The position numbers and the translations under genes were made by a program. Below, piece after piece: positions 3,648 to 59,607 of a stretch of DNA of 64,000 nucleotides. The stretch covers positions 248,001 through 312,000 of the forward strand of contig NZ_JABBWV010000007.1 of the NCBI RefSeq assembly GCF_012999535.1. The letters are read 5' to 3'. The notes under the pieces are model-generated. The model had not been told where the DNA came from. It saw nothing but the letters and a program-made list of their open reading frames with translations, and searched no databases. Within the stretch, counting starts at the first letter, position 1. Each line of letters opens with the position of its first letter. This DNA comes from Microbispora sp. H11081 (GTDB taxonomy: Bacteria > Actinomycetota > Actinomycetes > Streptosporangiales > Streptosporangiaceae).

Positions 3648-4822
3648 CCCGCGAAGGCCCGGTGACCGTCCCCGCCGTCGGCGCGGACCTGGTCGAGGCG
3701 GTCCGGGTACGGCTGTCGCAGACAGGCGCCGCTCCCACCGCCGCGCAGGTGGCGGCGGCCCTGCGCGCGGAGCGTGCCGTGCTCGGCGACGCCGAGGTCC
3801 TGGCCGTCGCGCGCACGCTGCGCGCGCACCTCATCGGCGCGGGCCCTCTCGAAACCCTGCTGGCCGAGCCTGGCGTCACGGACGTCCTGGTCAACGGCCC
3901 GCGCGAGGTGTGGGTGGACGACGGAGACGGCCTGCGCAGGACGAACGTGACCTTCCCGGGAGACGACGAGGTCCGCAGGCTCGCCCAGCGGCTGGCCGCG
4001 TCGGCCGGACGTCGCCTCGACGACGCCTGCCCCTACGTGGACGCCAGGCTCGCCGGCGGCGTGCGCCTGCACGCGGTGCTGCCGCCCGTCGCGGCGGAGG
4101 GGACCTGCCTGTCCCTGCGGCTGCCCTCGCGGCGGGCGTTCACGGTCGAGGAGCTCGCCCCGCGGGACGGAGCCGCCGTGCTCCGCGCGATCATGGGGGC
4201 GCGGCTGGCGTTCCTGGTGTCCGGGGGCACCGGAACAGGCAAGACGACGATGTTGAGCGCCATGCTCGCGCTCGCGGGTCCGGCGGAGCGCCTGCTGCTG
4301 GTCGAGGACTCGGCCGAACTGCAGCCGACGCACCCCCACGTCGTACGGCTGGAGGCCCGGCCGCCGAACCTGGAGGGCGCGGGCGGCGTCGGGCTGCGCG
4401 ACCTCGTACGGCAGGCACTCCGGATGCGGCCCGACCGCCTGGTGGTGGGCGAGGTGCGGGGAGCGGAGGTGGTCGACCTGCTGGCGGCGCTCAACACGGG
4501 CCACGAAGGAGGCTGCGGGACGCTGCACGCCAACAACGCCGCCGACGTGCCCGCGCGGCTGGAGGCCCTGGCCTGCGCCGCGGGACTGTCGCGGGAGGCG
4601 GTGCACAGCCAGATCGCCGCCGCGCTCGACCTCGTCATCCACCTCGTGCGGGAGGCCGGCGGCGGACGCCGTCGCGTGTCGGAGATCTGCGTGCTGGAAC
4701 GCGGCCCGTCCGGCCTGGTGACGGCGCTGCCGGCGCTGACCTTCGACGCGCAGGGCCAGGCGGTCCTCGGCCCCTGCTTCGACGTGCTGCGCGAACGGTG
4801 CGCTGGGTCGTGGCCCTCATGA
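3644..4822 (+). CDS. tadA: TadA/CpaF-type secretion ATPase
   Basis: 392 residues, the cytoplasmic motor ATPase of a Tad/Flp pilus or type II-like secretion system. The N-terminal domain contains TDVLVNGPREVWVDDGDGL, typical of CpaF. Walker A GGTGTGKT is at residues 194-201, followed by the Asp box LLLVEDSAELQ, the Walker B region DRLVVGEVRGAEVVDLL, and the His box ALNTGHEGGCGTLHANN. GTG 3644 overlaps the stop of the upstream gene by 4 bases; a GTG at 3662 is an alternative start. The downstream tadB start overlaps this stop (ATGA). Its length is usual for actinobacterial CpaF proteins. Confidence 0.95.
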   Translation: MTREGPVTVPAVGADLVEAVRVRLSQTGAAPTAAQVAAALRAERAVLGDAEVLAVARTLRAHLIGAGPLETLLAEPGVTDVLVNGPREVWVDDGDGLRRTNVTFPGDDEVRRLAQRLAASAGRRLDDACPYVDARLAGGVRLHAVLPPVAAEGTCLSLRLPSRRAFTVEELAPRDGAAVLRAIMGARLAFLVSGGTGTGKTTMLSAMLALAGPAERLLLVEDSAELQPTHPHVVRLEARPPNLEGAGGVGLRDLVRQALRMRPDRLVVGEVRGAEVVDLLAALNTGHEGGCGTLHANNAADVPARLEALACAAGLSREAVHSQIAAALDLVIHLVREAGGGRRRVSEICVLERGPSGLVTALPALTFDAQGQAVLGPCFDVLRERCAGSWPS

Positions 4823-6605: not shown

Positions 6606-7358
6606 ATGAGCAAGCACGCCGCGACCGGCAGAACCAACCAGGCGGGCGCCCCGACCGGCACCGGTGCCGGCGAAGCTCCCCGGCGGAGGAGCAGGGGCGC
6701 GGTCGGCCGTCACAGGGCGCGACCGGCACGATGGGCCGCGCTCGCGCGTGCCGTGCGAAGCGCGCTGTCCAGCCGCTCCCGGCGGGTGTCGATGGCGGCC
6801 CGCTGCGGCGGATGGGGTAGGACGGGCGGCTCGGAGGGCTGGAGGCGGTCGCCGCTGCCGGGCCGAGGGGCGGCATTCGGTCGCCAGGGACAGTGGGTGG
6901 CCGCCGACCGGTGGATGATCGGCTGGGGGCGGGGATACGGCCGTGGCGGCGGCATACTCGCCGCCGTGGGCGTGCTCGCCGTCAGCGCACCGGCCGTGCT
7001 GCGGGGTGTGGGACGGCCCGGGCGCTCCGGTGCCCTGGGTGACGTCCTGGGGGGTGTCGTCCGGCGGTGGTCCCAGCCACGGGACGGCGCGGAGGTGGTC
7101 CGGCAGGCTCTGCGGCGGTCGTGCGCGGCGCTCCGGCGTTCCGTCGCCCGGGCCTCCTGCCGAGCCAGGACGCTGGGCATCCAGTGGACCGTGCAGGCGC
7201 GTACGAGGGCAGAGGCGGGCATGTCGACCGCGGAGTACGCGGTCGGCACGATCGCCGCCTGTGGCTTCGCCGCCCTGCTCTGGAAGGTCGTCACGAGCGC
7301 CGAAGTGAGGTCCATGCTCGCCGCGCTCATCCAGAAGGCACTGAAGCTGGCCGCATGA
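6606..7358 (+). CDS. DUF4244 Flp-pilin-like protein with long Arg-rich N-terminal extension
   Basis: 250 residues. The last ~55 residues (RAEAGMSTAEYAVGTIAACGFAALLWKVV) are a DUF4244 sequence: a short class III/Flp-like pilin with a G-M-S-T-A-E-Y cleavage-type site before a hydrophobic helix. It is the probable structural subunit of this Tad system. DUF4244 proteins are usually about 60-100 residues. Here about 190 residues precede the pilin part, rich in Arg, Gly and Trp, with one hydrophobic stretch (GGILAAVGVLAVSAPAVL). ATG 6606 has AGGAGGA 3-4 bases upstream, and the frame is open with mostly G/C third positions, which supports the long form. Its stop overlaps the next ATG. Confidence 0.75.
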   Translation: MSKHAATGRTNQAGAPTGTGAGEAPRRRSRGAVGRHRARPARWAALARAVRSALSSRSRRVSMAARCGGWGRTGGSEGWRRSPLPGRGAAFGRQGQWVAADRWMIGWGRGYGRGGGILAAVGVLAVSAPAVLRGVGRPGRSGALGDVLGGVVRRWSQPRDGAEVVRQALRRSCAALRRSVARASCRARTLGIQWTVQARTRAEAGMSTAEYAVGTIAACGFAALLWKVVTSAEVRSMLAALIQKALKLAA

Positions 7359-57445: not shown

Positions 57446-59089
57446 ATGTCCGGCAGCATGGGTGGCACCATGGAAGTCCTCGTCGCACTCCTCGCGTTCG
57501 CCGGCGCGCTGCTCGCCGGCATCACCACCGGCGTCCTCGTCGGGCGTCTCCGTGACGAGCCGGCCGGTTGGCTGATCGCGTGGAGCATCGCCACGGGCGC
57601 GCTCACGTTGTCGCTCGGCGCCATCGCAGTCGGCCACCTCACCGGTTTCGGTCCCCTGATGTTCCGGACGTACCAGATCACCGGGTCGCTGCTGGCGCCG
57701 CTGTGGCTGACGATCGGCGTCATCCAGCTCCTCGCGGAGAAGGGCGGTGCCCGCTTCGCCGGCTGGCTGCTCGGCGCCGCGCTCACCGTCGTGGGCACGG
57801 TCATCATGGTGCTCGACCCCGTCGTGACCGCCGGGTTCGGCAAGACGCTGCCCGACGGGCCGGCCCACTGGGACCTCTGGCCGGAGTGGCTGCTGCGGGG
57901 CGTACACGGCCTGGTGATCTTCCTGCTCCTGCTCCTCCTCGCCATGGCCTTGCTGGCGTGGCGGGACGGCGACGAGTACGACGTCGACAACATGAACGCC
58001 ACCGTCGTGATCGCCCCGGCGGGCATGGCCGTCGCCGGCGTGCTCGAATTCGGGCTTCCCGGGCTGGTCGTCGTCGTGGTGCTGGCCGCCACGGCGGGAG
58101 GCGTCTGGTACGCCGTGGCCCGTCCGCTCGCGCCGTACGAGGACGAGGACGAGGATGACGAGGCGCCCGCGGAGGAGTGGCAGGGGCGGCGCGGCGGACG
58201 GGCCGACAGCGCGCTGCGCGCCGAGACCCGTGTGCCGTCCGCGCCATCCGGTCCGCCGACGCCGCCGCGCGGGTCCTATGGAGGCCACCCCGGCGGGCCG
58301 GGAGCGGTTCCGGCCGGAGCTCCCGGGATGCCGGGCGTCCCCGGAGCCGCGGGGGCGCCGCGGCGGTCGGGGCTCGGCGACCTGGTGGCCGAATACCGCG
58401 CGGGGGAGCAGGGCGAGGTCGACTACGCCGCCCGCATGCGGCCCCCCGACGGCCGCCGGTCCGCCGACGACTTCGGCGGGCCCGCGACCGGCCAGCTTCT
58501 CGCCGCCGACCAGTACGGCCAGCCGCGCCGGCCCGAGTACGGCATGCCCGCGGCGTCTCCGTCCGAGCCCGACCGGGCGATGCCGGCCACGGGGGCCCTG
58601 TATCCCGGCGCGGAGATCCCCGACCCCGGCGACCTCGCGGCGAGCTTAGGTGTGGGGTTCGGCGGCAGGTCACGGCCGCCCATGAACCGTCCCGCCGACG
58701 TGCTGGGGGACCGGCAGGCGGCCAGGCCGGCCGGTCAGGGGAGCTCGGTGAAGCCGGCCCCGGGCATCTACGGCCTGCTGACCGTGTTCACGCTGCTCGA
58801 CGGCACGGGCGAGGCGTTCGACAAACTGGCCGAGGAGACGGTGCAGGCCGTCCAGCGCAACGAGCCCGACACGCTGCTGTTCGTCTGCCACGGCGTCAAG
58901 TCGGCGCCGCTCCAGCGCATCGTCTACGAGCTCTACCGGGACGAGGTCGGCTACGGCGAGCACCAGCGCCAGCCGCACATGGAGCGCTTCGCGACCGAGC
59001 GGGTGAGATACGTGCTGGCGGCCAACGTGATCGAGCTCACCGTCAACGCCGCCAAGGTCGTCCCCCTCCCCACCCGCCACCTCCCGTGA
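57446..59089 (+). CDS. Multi-span membrane protein fused to ABM-like domain
   Basis: 547 residues. N-terminal ~225 residues contain 6-7 membrane helices (VLVALLAFAGALLAGITTGVLV to LVVVVVLAATAGGVWYAV). A disordered Pro/Gly/Asp-rich linker of about 200 residues follows. The C-terminal ~110 residues (GIYGLLTVFTLLDGTGEAFDKLAEETVQAVQRNEPDTLLFVCHGV, QRIVYELYRDEVGYGEHQRQPHMERF) resemble an ABM-type antibiotic-biosynthesis monooxygenase fold. ATG 57446 is 3 bases after AGGAG; ATG 57458 and 57470 are alternatives. The stop codon lies within the inverted repeat of the element at 59084. Divergent from the BldN-like gene. Confidence 0.82.
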   Translation: MSGSMGGTMEVLVALLAFAGALLAGITTGVLVGRLRDEPAGWLIAWSIATGALTLSLGAIAVGHLTGFGPLMFRTYQITGSLLAPLWLTIGVIQLLAEKGGARFAGWLLGAALTVVGTVIMVLDPVVTAGFGKTLPDGPAHWDLWPEWLLRGVHGLVIFLLLLLLAMALLAWRDGDEYDVDNMNATVVIAPAGMAVAGVLEFGLPGLVVVVVLAATAGGVWYAVARPLAPYEDEDEDDEAPAEEWQGRRGGRADSALRAETRVPSAPSGPPTPPRGSYGGHPGGPGAVPAGAPGMPGVPGAAGAPRRSGLGDLVAEYRAGEQGEVDYAARMRPPDGRRSADDFGGPATGQLLAADQYGQPRRPEYGMPAASPSEPDRAMPATGALYPGAEIPDPGDLAASLGVGFGGRSRPPMNRPADVLGDRQAARPAGQGSSVKPAPGIYGLLTVFTLLDGTGEAFDKLAEETVQAVQRNEPDTLLFVCHGVKSAPLQRIVYELYRDEVGYGEHQRQPHMERFATERVRYVLAANVIELTVNAAKVVPLPTRHLP

Positions 59090-59335
59090 TCTTGTAGTTT
59101 GTCGCAGGCATGGGGGATGACCTGCGGTGACGACCTTCGGGATCATGCACTCCGCCTGGGGATGCGTACGCTGACCTGCGGAAACGCGATTCGTGATCTT
59201 GCGATTTCCTGATACTGCAAGATCACGAATGATGTAGCCGCAGGTAGGCGGGCCTTTTGGCGGCCGTACTGCATGGTCACGGAAATTAACGTCGCAGGTG
59301 GGAGTGGGTCGCTGCGACAAACTACAAGATCACGG
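59084..59335. mobile_element. 252-bp element with 24-bp perfect terminal inverted repeats (MITE-like)
   Basis: The left end (59084-59107, starting CCGTGATCTTGTAGTTTGTC) is perfectly inverted at the right end (59312-59335). Inside is a 14-bp stem ATTCGTGATCTTGC (59189-59202) with GCAAGATCACGAAT (59217-59230), and an outer stem ACCTGCGG (59174-59181) with CCGCAGGT (59238-59245). CGTGATCTTG occurs four times in alternating orientation. Each end can also fold alone (GTCGCAGG with CCTGCG near 59103-59126, and GTCGCAG/CTGCGAC at 59291-59318). There is no reading frame. It lies between convergent genes; a clear target duplication is not seen. Confidence 0.7.
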
Positions 59336-59358: not shown

Positions 59359-59607
59359 TCACCGGGTGAGGGCGGTGCGGAGCCGGTTCTCGTTCACCCG
59401 CCAGTAGTCGTGCTGCACGCCGTCGATCAGTACGACGGGGATCATCTCCCCGTACTCCGCCTGGTCCTCCGGCGAGGCGGTGATGTCGCGTTCCTCCCAG
59501 GGAACGCCCAGTTCCGCCGCCACGCGCCCGACCACCTCGCGGGCGTCGTCGCACAGATGGCAGCCGGGCTTGCCGAGCAGCGTGATCCGGTGATCTCGAG
59601 GAGCCAT
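59359..59607 (-). CDS. Glutaredoxin-like thiol protein (DUF836)
   Basis: 82 residues. Thioredoxin-fold start HRITLLGKPGCHLCDDARE with the CxxC pair at C16 and C19, and VVLIDGVQHDYWRVNENRL at the C-terminus. It is a small thiol-disulfide protein of unknown partner, frequently beside rex-hem genes in actinomycetes. It is convergent with the ABM-fusion gene, and the palindromic element separates them. Confidence 0.88.
   Translation of the reverse strand: MAPRDHRITLLGKPGCHLCDDAREVVGRVAAELGVPWEERDITASPEDQAEYGEMIPVVLIDGVQHDYWRVNENRLRTALTR

Follow-up and report, generated by a model that had tools for sequence, protein, structure and literature searches.

A gene-less palindrome at a Microbispora gene end suggests an undescribed repeat-plus-nuclease system in actinobacteria

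In the genome of Microbispora sp. H11081, a 252-bp palindrome supplies the stop codon of one gene and lies next to a second, convergent gene, raising the question of what such an element is and what maintains it. It was analysed within the window, the whole stretch of 64,000 nucleotides examined here. With a probability of about 0.62, the element is a gene-less member of a repeat family that is coupled to a nuclease.

Anatomy of the element and its copies

The initial annotation had described a palindrome with perfect 24-bp inverted ends, and the sequence bears this out; the 30-nt arms match at 93%. The motif CGTGATCTTG or its complement does occur exactly four times, at 59085, 59192, 59218 and 59325, but in the order ++-- rather than in the alternating orientation that had been given. 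Degenerate extra core copies bring the count to three inward-facing units on each side (Table 1). The site unit is about 22 bp long, has the core GTGATCWTGCA and is repeated at an interval of 53 bp, three times inward from either end. As annotated, the stop codon of the upstream gene comes from the left terminal repeat. No transposase frame had been seen inside the element, and no mobility gene was found there; gene-less as it is, the term non-autonomous applies.

Table 1. Positions in the window of the element, its site units and the adjoining genes
Feature	Position	Strand	Remark
Whole element	59084-59335		Inverted array, three site units per arm; arms meet at the central dyad
Left terminal site, 24 bp	59084-59107	+	Family end is the 23-mer CGTGATCTTGTAGTTTGTCGCAG
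Right terminal site, inverted	59312-59335	-	
TGA stop codon of upstream gene	59087-59089	+	Within left terminal site
Unit 2 core, left arm	59139-59149	+	GGGATCATGCA, one mismatch; 53 bp past unit 1
Unit 3 core, left arm	59193-59203	+	GTGATCTTGCG; 54 bp past unit 2
Unit 3 core, right arm	59216-59226	-	
Unit 2 core, right arm	59270-59280	-	Degenerate
Central dyad	59190-59229		Sole region with covarying arms in the repeat family
Conserved sub-motif TGACCTGC	59118-59125	+	Also 59172-59179; inverted GCAGGT at 59240-59245 and 59294-59299
C-rich, G-poor tract outside left end	59062-59083	+	Typical of the repeat family
Upstream gene, 547-aa ORF ending in element	57446-59089	+	No Pfam match
Convergent glutaredoxin-like gene	59359-59607	-	PF05768; other side of element

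On the right-hand side of the window element, the C-rich tract is poor. A 216-aa minus-strand frame (58670-59320) overlaps the upstream gene. An Rfam scan of the element gave nothing above threshold, and a simple consensus scan detected no intrinsic terminator (GC stem followed by a T run) in it. Elsewhere in the window, at 2334-2410, a 6C RNA (RF01066) scored 58.6 bits, above the Rfam threshold.

Dispersed copies with the same ends, which the initial annotation had proposed to look for, are plentiful in the own genome, and the case of one fixed copy conserved between genera can be excluded. The element has 104 matches there, palindromic copies being counted on both strands, and the end 20-mer was found in 148 copies at up to three mismatches; the reversed pattern gave none. 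Paired ends in the fetched stretches defined 87 spans, or 72 once nested ones were removed, 48 of them from the own genome. The length of these paired elements has its mode at about 238 bp and longer forms gain steps of about 53 bp, while units in the own genome are spaced by 52-54 bp in 177 of 180 intervals. The family unit starts with GTGATCWTGCA and carries the conserved tail GTTTGTCGCA on the outermost copy, and the TGACCTGC block is found about 18 bp ahead of the next unit.

Orthologous elements at L103/L092 and L108/L093 differ by roughly one unit between species; array units may be gained or lost one at a time. In stretch L096, the predicted N-termini of two amidohydrolase-family genes fall in array units (4398-4514 and 7074-7160), where array sequence seems to have turned coding.

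A nuclease gene between inward-facing arrays

Outside the window, inward-facing arrays of the same site lie on both sides of one gene of the own genome (G000:C23:9073-10041). Here and in M. bryophytorum, end pairs of 1.3-1.4 kb enclose this gene, whose 323-aa product is encoded between half-arrays and fuses an AbiEi_1 domain with an MTES_1575 REase domain of the Vsr type. Where a transposase with matching ends had been envisaged, the gene flanked by the same ends thus encodes an AbiEi-Vsr endonuclease-like protein instead. AbiEi (PF09407, cut-off 22.2 bits) scored 25.8 and 29.3 bits in G000 and M. bryophytorum and 46.2 and 22.6 bits in G373 and G432, and was not detected at E 0.001 in the G144 homologue. 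MTES_1575 (PF18741, cut-off 38.2 bits) scored 45.3 and 43.9 bits in G000 and M. bryophytorum and 41.6 bits in G144, and stayed under the cut-off in G373 (31.1) and G432 (34.0). The residues EYDG..HS are conserved in seven nuclease sequences. Binding to inverted repeats of 23 bp is reported for AbiEi proteins (PMC7319586), and the MTES_1575 domain is a Vsr REase by its description (PMC3710099).

Inward arrays were present on both sides in all eight of the best homologues (G000, G211, G119, G077, G144, G084, G373 and G432), which span the three families f1, f30 and f32; arrays flank the nuclease in f42 too. The G084 homologue has a broken frame. None of seven weaker paralogues had flanking arrays. 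Homologues were searched for in 24 genomes, and the flanked gene was found in 8 of 12 with at least 14 array pairs vs 0 of 12 with two or fewer (p 0.0013, ignoring relatedness). Since four of the 12 array-rich genomes (G187, G059, G104 and G034) are without a flanked homologue, either arrays can exist without the gene or diverged forms of it escaped the search. Among 15 Microbispora, the nuclease is present in G000, G119 and G211 and was not found in ten array-less genomes, in G194 (8 end sites) or in G187 (42 end sites), which amounts to three of four genomes with at least 42 end sites vs none of 11 with eight or fewer (Fisher p 0.0088, ignoring relatedness).

The gene occupies one conserved place in six genomes of the own family, with P450 and GDP-mannose dehydratase genes on either side, so that in those six the nuclease gene itself is not hopping. 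Site and gene co-vary: in G373, G432, G491, G077 and G144, the units beside the nuclease have the tail that comes nearest to the genome's own dispersed units, and three Microbispora have one common tail at the nuclease, closest to the dispersed sites of the genus. For G084, the tail comparison gave no clear match. No relatives of the nuclease were confirmed on viral contigs, the one sequence hit among solved structures (E 0.54) was not meaningful, and single-sequence structure prediction was too poor for use (mean pLDDT 40.3).

At E 1e-20, the protein family was found in 245 of 394 genomes of the class. Inverted repeats common to both flanks were detected at 34 of 72 loci chosen among the matches listed, six of which are places already known among the examined homologues (batches 14/28, 18/40 and 2/4). 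The controls gave 3 of 72 in direct orientation and 93 of 5112 for mismatched flank pairs; the known flanked loci L304 and L305 lie below the repeat threshold. By clade, 30 of 44 rows in one clade and four of nine in the own protein's clade were flanked members, with one elsewhere. Many loci of f28 have motifs unrelated to GTGATC. Moreover, seven genomes (G653, G619, G692, G673, G404, G561 and G686) have two flagged loci that differ in motif, and a rule of one gene per genome therefore fails in f28.

Site intervals at 30 of the 34 loci cluster at 21-22, 31-33, 41-44, 52-54 and 62-63 bp. The best period is 10.4 bp, and none of 3000 jittered sets was equally strong; the exceptions are one locus at 26 bp, one at 35-38 bp and single values of 59 and 66 bp. 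Spacing near whole helical turns argues that the sites function in duplex DNA. Helical spacing in f32 alone was not significant (p 0.55). The f30 and f32 loci of an earlier spacing test had been found with a spacing-limited pattern, and the 30-locus test is the better one. The nuclease locus L363 of G498 has a strict 26-bp spacing, off the whole-turn pattern.

History, placement and alternative explanations

At the window locus, the element is absent from the other 14 Microbispora. G211 and G194 have the homologous stop followed by a short GC-rich inverted repeat, and G097 has a different upstream neighbour. At metB, an orthologous element is present in three of 15 genomes (G000; G187, M. rosea; G119, M. 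bryophytorum), and ten others have a GC-rich inverted repeat in its place, at no more than three edits over the intergenic stretch; G178 and G216 match that repeat poorly. In trees of the flanking genes, G000, G187 and G119 each have different sisters without the metB element. At the glycerate kinase locus, sequence resembling decayed units was seen by eye in G168, G200, G065 and G139, in a display that covered 13 of the 14 loci. Among stretches fetched for carrying an end, 15 M. rosea and 14 M. bryophytorum regions are syntenic with own arrays. From this pattern of shared and absent loci, the family is old, some lineages have lost it or show its decay, and non-sister species have at least one insertion in common.

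In the named genome collection, the exact end 20-mer was found in 39 stretches, all from Microbispora (rosea, bryophytorum and sp. H13382, which is G194), and with up to two mismatches it was found in 12 of 250 genomes of the family, five of them with single hits. In genus g35, every copy among the matches listed has the TTTC variant or is near it. Of 345 genomes of the order, 21 contain phased GTGATCWTG pairs, several as single hits, and so do 16 of 394 genomes of the class, including the distant families f30 and f32. Five g23 genomes have 153-746 such pairs and G059 has 541, and lineages differ in the tail that follows the core. G088, which belongs to a separate genus of the family, has another kind of repeat (GTGATCTTG...CAAGATCATTTCAGGAC...GTGATCTTG) at C5:82497 and C5:249788, which is unrelated or a sister repeat. 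Several arrays of the distant G373 (L263-L270) enclose a separate stem around ACAGAATGCTGG / CAGCATTCTG.

The element had been annotated as lying at a gene end, and its copies likewise lie at gene 3' ends, where they often provide the TGA. In the own genome, no more than 60 bp separate 56 of 62 arrays from a gene 3' end, and on 22 of 86 gene-facing sides the terminal site supplies its TGA as the stop codon. By gene calls from a custom codon-position score, 20 of the 48 paired elements are convergent, 25 tandem and only one divergent, with two unassigned. Near 3' ends, the own genome has its arrays in sense orientation in 70 of 72 cases, and M. rosea and M. bryophytorum together in 39 of 41; other genera gave 20/24 (g23), 7/8 (g60) and 8/9 (g35). 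Read in the sense of the outgoing gene, the outer 20 nt are 62% C and 12% G, and 71 of 92 array flanks passed a C-rich test vs 13 of 55 control gene ends, for which the search window was wider.

A role as two-way terminator, which the initial annotation had also considered, fits this placement and the C-rich flanks. It is possible, though we hold it doubtful, that the arrays are terminators or boundaries useful to the host, where C-rich RNA would recruit Rho, array-bound protein would block polymerase from both directions and the nuclease-like protein would be a domesticated binder. That the metB element occupies the place of an inverted repeat common to ten relatives also speaks for such a role. 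Nevertheless, the whole set of arrays is absent from close relatives, and tolerated insertion would also account for the 3'-end placement.

The initial annotation had also proposed a MITE, and the multiple copies, the terminal inverted repeats and the lack of genes agree with this. Orthologous loci without the element exist too, as an empty-site comparison had been meant to reveal. A classical MITE moved by an undetected transposase, with a secondary link to the nuclease, is nevertheless improbable, because young copies are missing, site arrays lie inside the element and the nuclease is array-flanked in four families. The nearest other copy in the own genome has 61-71% body identity, with the exception of two pairs at 90% and 80%; the copies are star-like without a recent burst, and a search of the own genome revealed no close donor of the window copy. 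The target duplication that had been anticipated was not seen by eye, the flanks being C-rich and G-rich tracts, and excision was not observed either. As for transposases, of which only the Y1 family was searched, none was detected in G000, G144 or G059. At E 0.001, Y1 (PF01797) was likewise not found in G211, G206, G178 or G051 and was present in 11 of 18 genomes; a RAYT partner was rejected as no Y1 transposase was detected in the own genome. An autonomous transposon in end pairs of about 2.75 kb (L096, L061 and L070, the last known by positions only) was also rejected: the enclosed genes are host genes of the amidohydrolase and glycerate kinase families.

The structured palindrome of the initial annotation could mean that a long hairpin, as RNA or cruciform, is the functional form. 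The fold is indeed very stable (z -9.25 as RNA and -10.5 as DNA, with 0 of 200 shuffles as stable in either case), and the arms covary beside the centre. Such a reading is unlikely all the same. Among the own elements, 24 with a length of 236-241 bp gave a spacer complementarity of 0.364 within elements vs 0.353 between them (44 variable columns), the middle-unit position that is A or T half the time did not covary (0.46 vs 0.49), and covarying columns were confined to those beside the central core. As spacers pair equally well within and between elements, the long hairpin arises mostly as a side effect of the sites being inverted, and the near-whole-turn spacing also points to duplex DNA. The sites themselves are conserved. 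In nine element pairs compared between species, one of them a paralogue, differences amounted to 10/396 (2.5%) in end sites, 18/418 in inner cores, 14/125 in TGACCTGC-type blocks and 253/1355 (19%) in spacers. The end and core values are biased low, as exact end matches served to fetch the foreign copies and likeness to the own copy served to mark the cores; the contrast with the spacers is large despite that bias.

Sites for another known DNA-binding protein such as ArgR are the least probable explanation: a site in a table of predictions for Streptomyces coelicolor (CTCTCCGTGATCATGCACCC, near SCO5864; PMC5839063) contains the full 11-bp core, but it is one predicted site in another genus, and the arrays, tails and flanked gene point elsewhere. 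The surround of the core at this site is C-rich, and the site could be a lone unit of the repeat family.

Proposed mechanism and known systems

For the nuclease-coupled repeat family, the following mechanism is proposed on sequence grounds. The AbiEi-like domain would bind each site, with neighbours lined up along the same helix face, and through this binding selection would act on the sites of all copies. A nick or cut at or near array-bound DNA may then be made by the nuclease domain, and host recombination would copy arrays to allelic or new sites, comparable to the presumed upkeep of REPINs by RAYTs. The copies that persist would mainly be those at gene 3' ends, being harmless there. The arrays might also act as two-way transcription boundaries, with C-rich RNA leading into a protein-covered palindrome.

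More speculatively, nuclease-driven repeats without a known transposase could extend across the actinomycetes. An AbiEi-Vsr protein would bind phased arrays and cut unoccupied alleles or gene-end targets, and recombination would copy the arrays; site and protein would diversify together fast, with tails differing between related genera and even within one genus (G077 vs G144). The metB insertion in three non-sister Microbispora, whose sisters have the seemingly ancestral form, would fit homing between species.

Taken as a whole, the data suggest an undescribed repeat-plus-nuclease system in actinobacteria. If correct, this would be a second, enzymatically unrelated case of a bacterial gene that acts in trans and is tied to dozens to hundreds of repeats in its genome. 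A role would be suggested for the large unassigned AbiEi/DUF559-like family of actinobacteria, and the arrays would offer natural test systems for the co-evolution of protein-DNA specificity at genome scale. Open-access literature, screened by title and start of abstract, gave no description of these repeats.

BIME/REP arrays of enterobacteria are modular, extragenic and located at gene 3' ends. The present arrays resemble them in all three respects, although here the unit is non-palindromic and both the sequence and the partner are different. MITEs are short, gene-less, high-copy elements with terminal inverted repeats. The element shares these features, whereas a burst and a visible target duplication are absent and the transposons examined included none with a transposase between such ends.

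The REPIN/RAYT system, as reported, comprises extragenic gene-less inverted repeats, a gene flanked by them, co-variation of repeat and gene, and single repeats that are relic-like (PMC3116915). The arrays are like it in that many gene-less extragenic inverted repeats accompany a gene flanked by them, and repeat and gene co-vary between lineages. However, the RAYT is a Y1 transposase, whereas the protein here is AbiEi-Vsr-like, and a single hairpin is replaced by several phased duplex sites per arm. Compensatory changes, reported as common in REPINs (PMC3116915), are absent from the arms here outside the centre. The pair of repeat and nuclease appears to be new as a system, since neither the Y1 transposase nor the paired arms of REPIN/RAYT apply, a target duplication is missing, neither a transposase with the ends nor a published description was found; its function is predicted from sequence features. 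Finally, the operator of AbiEi, through which type IV toxin-antitoxin systems autoregulate, is similar in its related DNA-binding part and its 23-bp inverted sites (PMC7319586), while here gene ends across the genome hold the sites and a nuclease-like domain is part of the protein.
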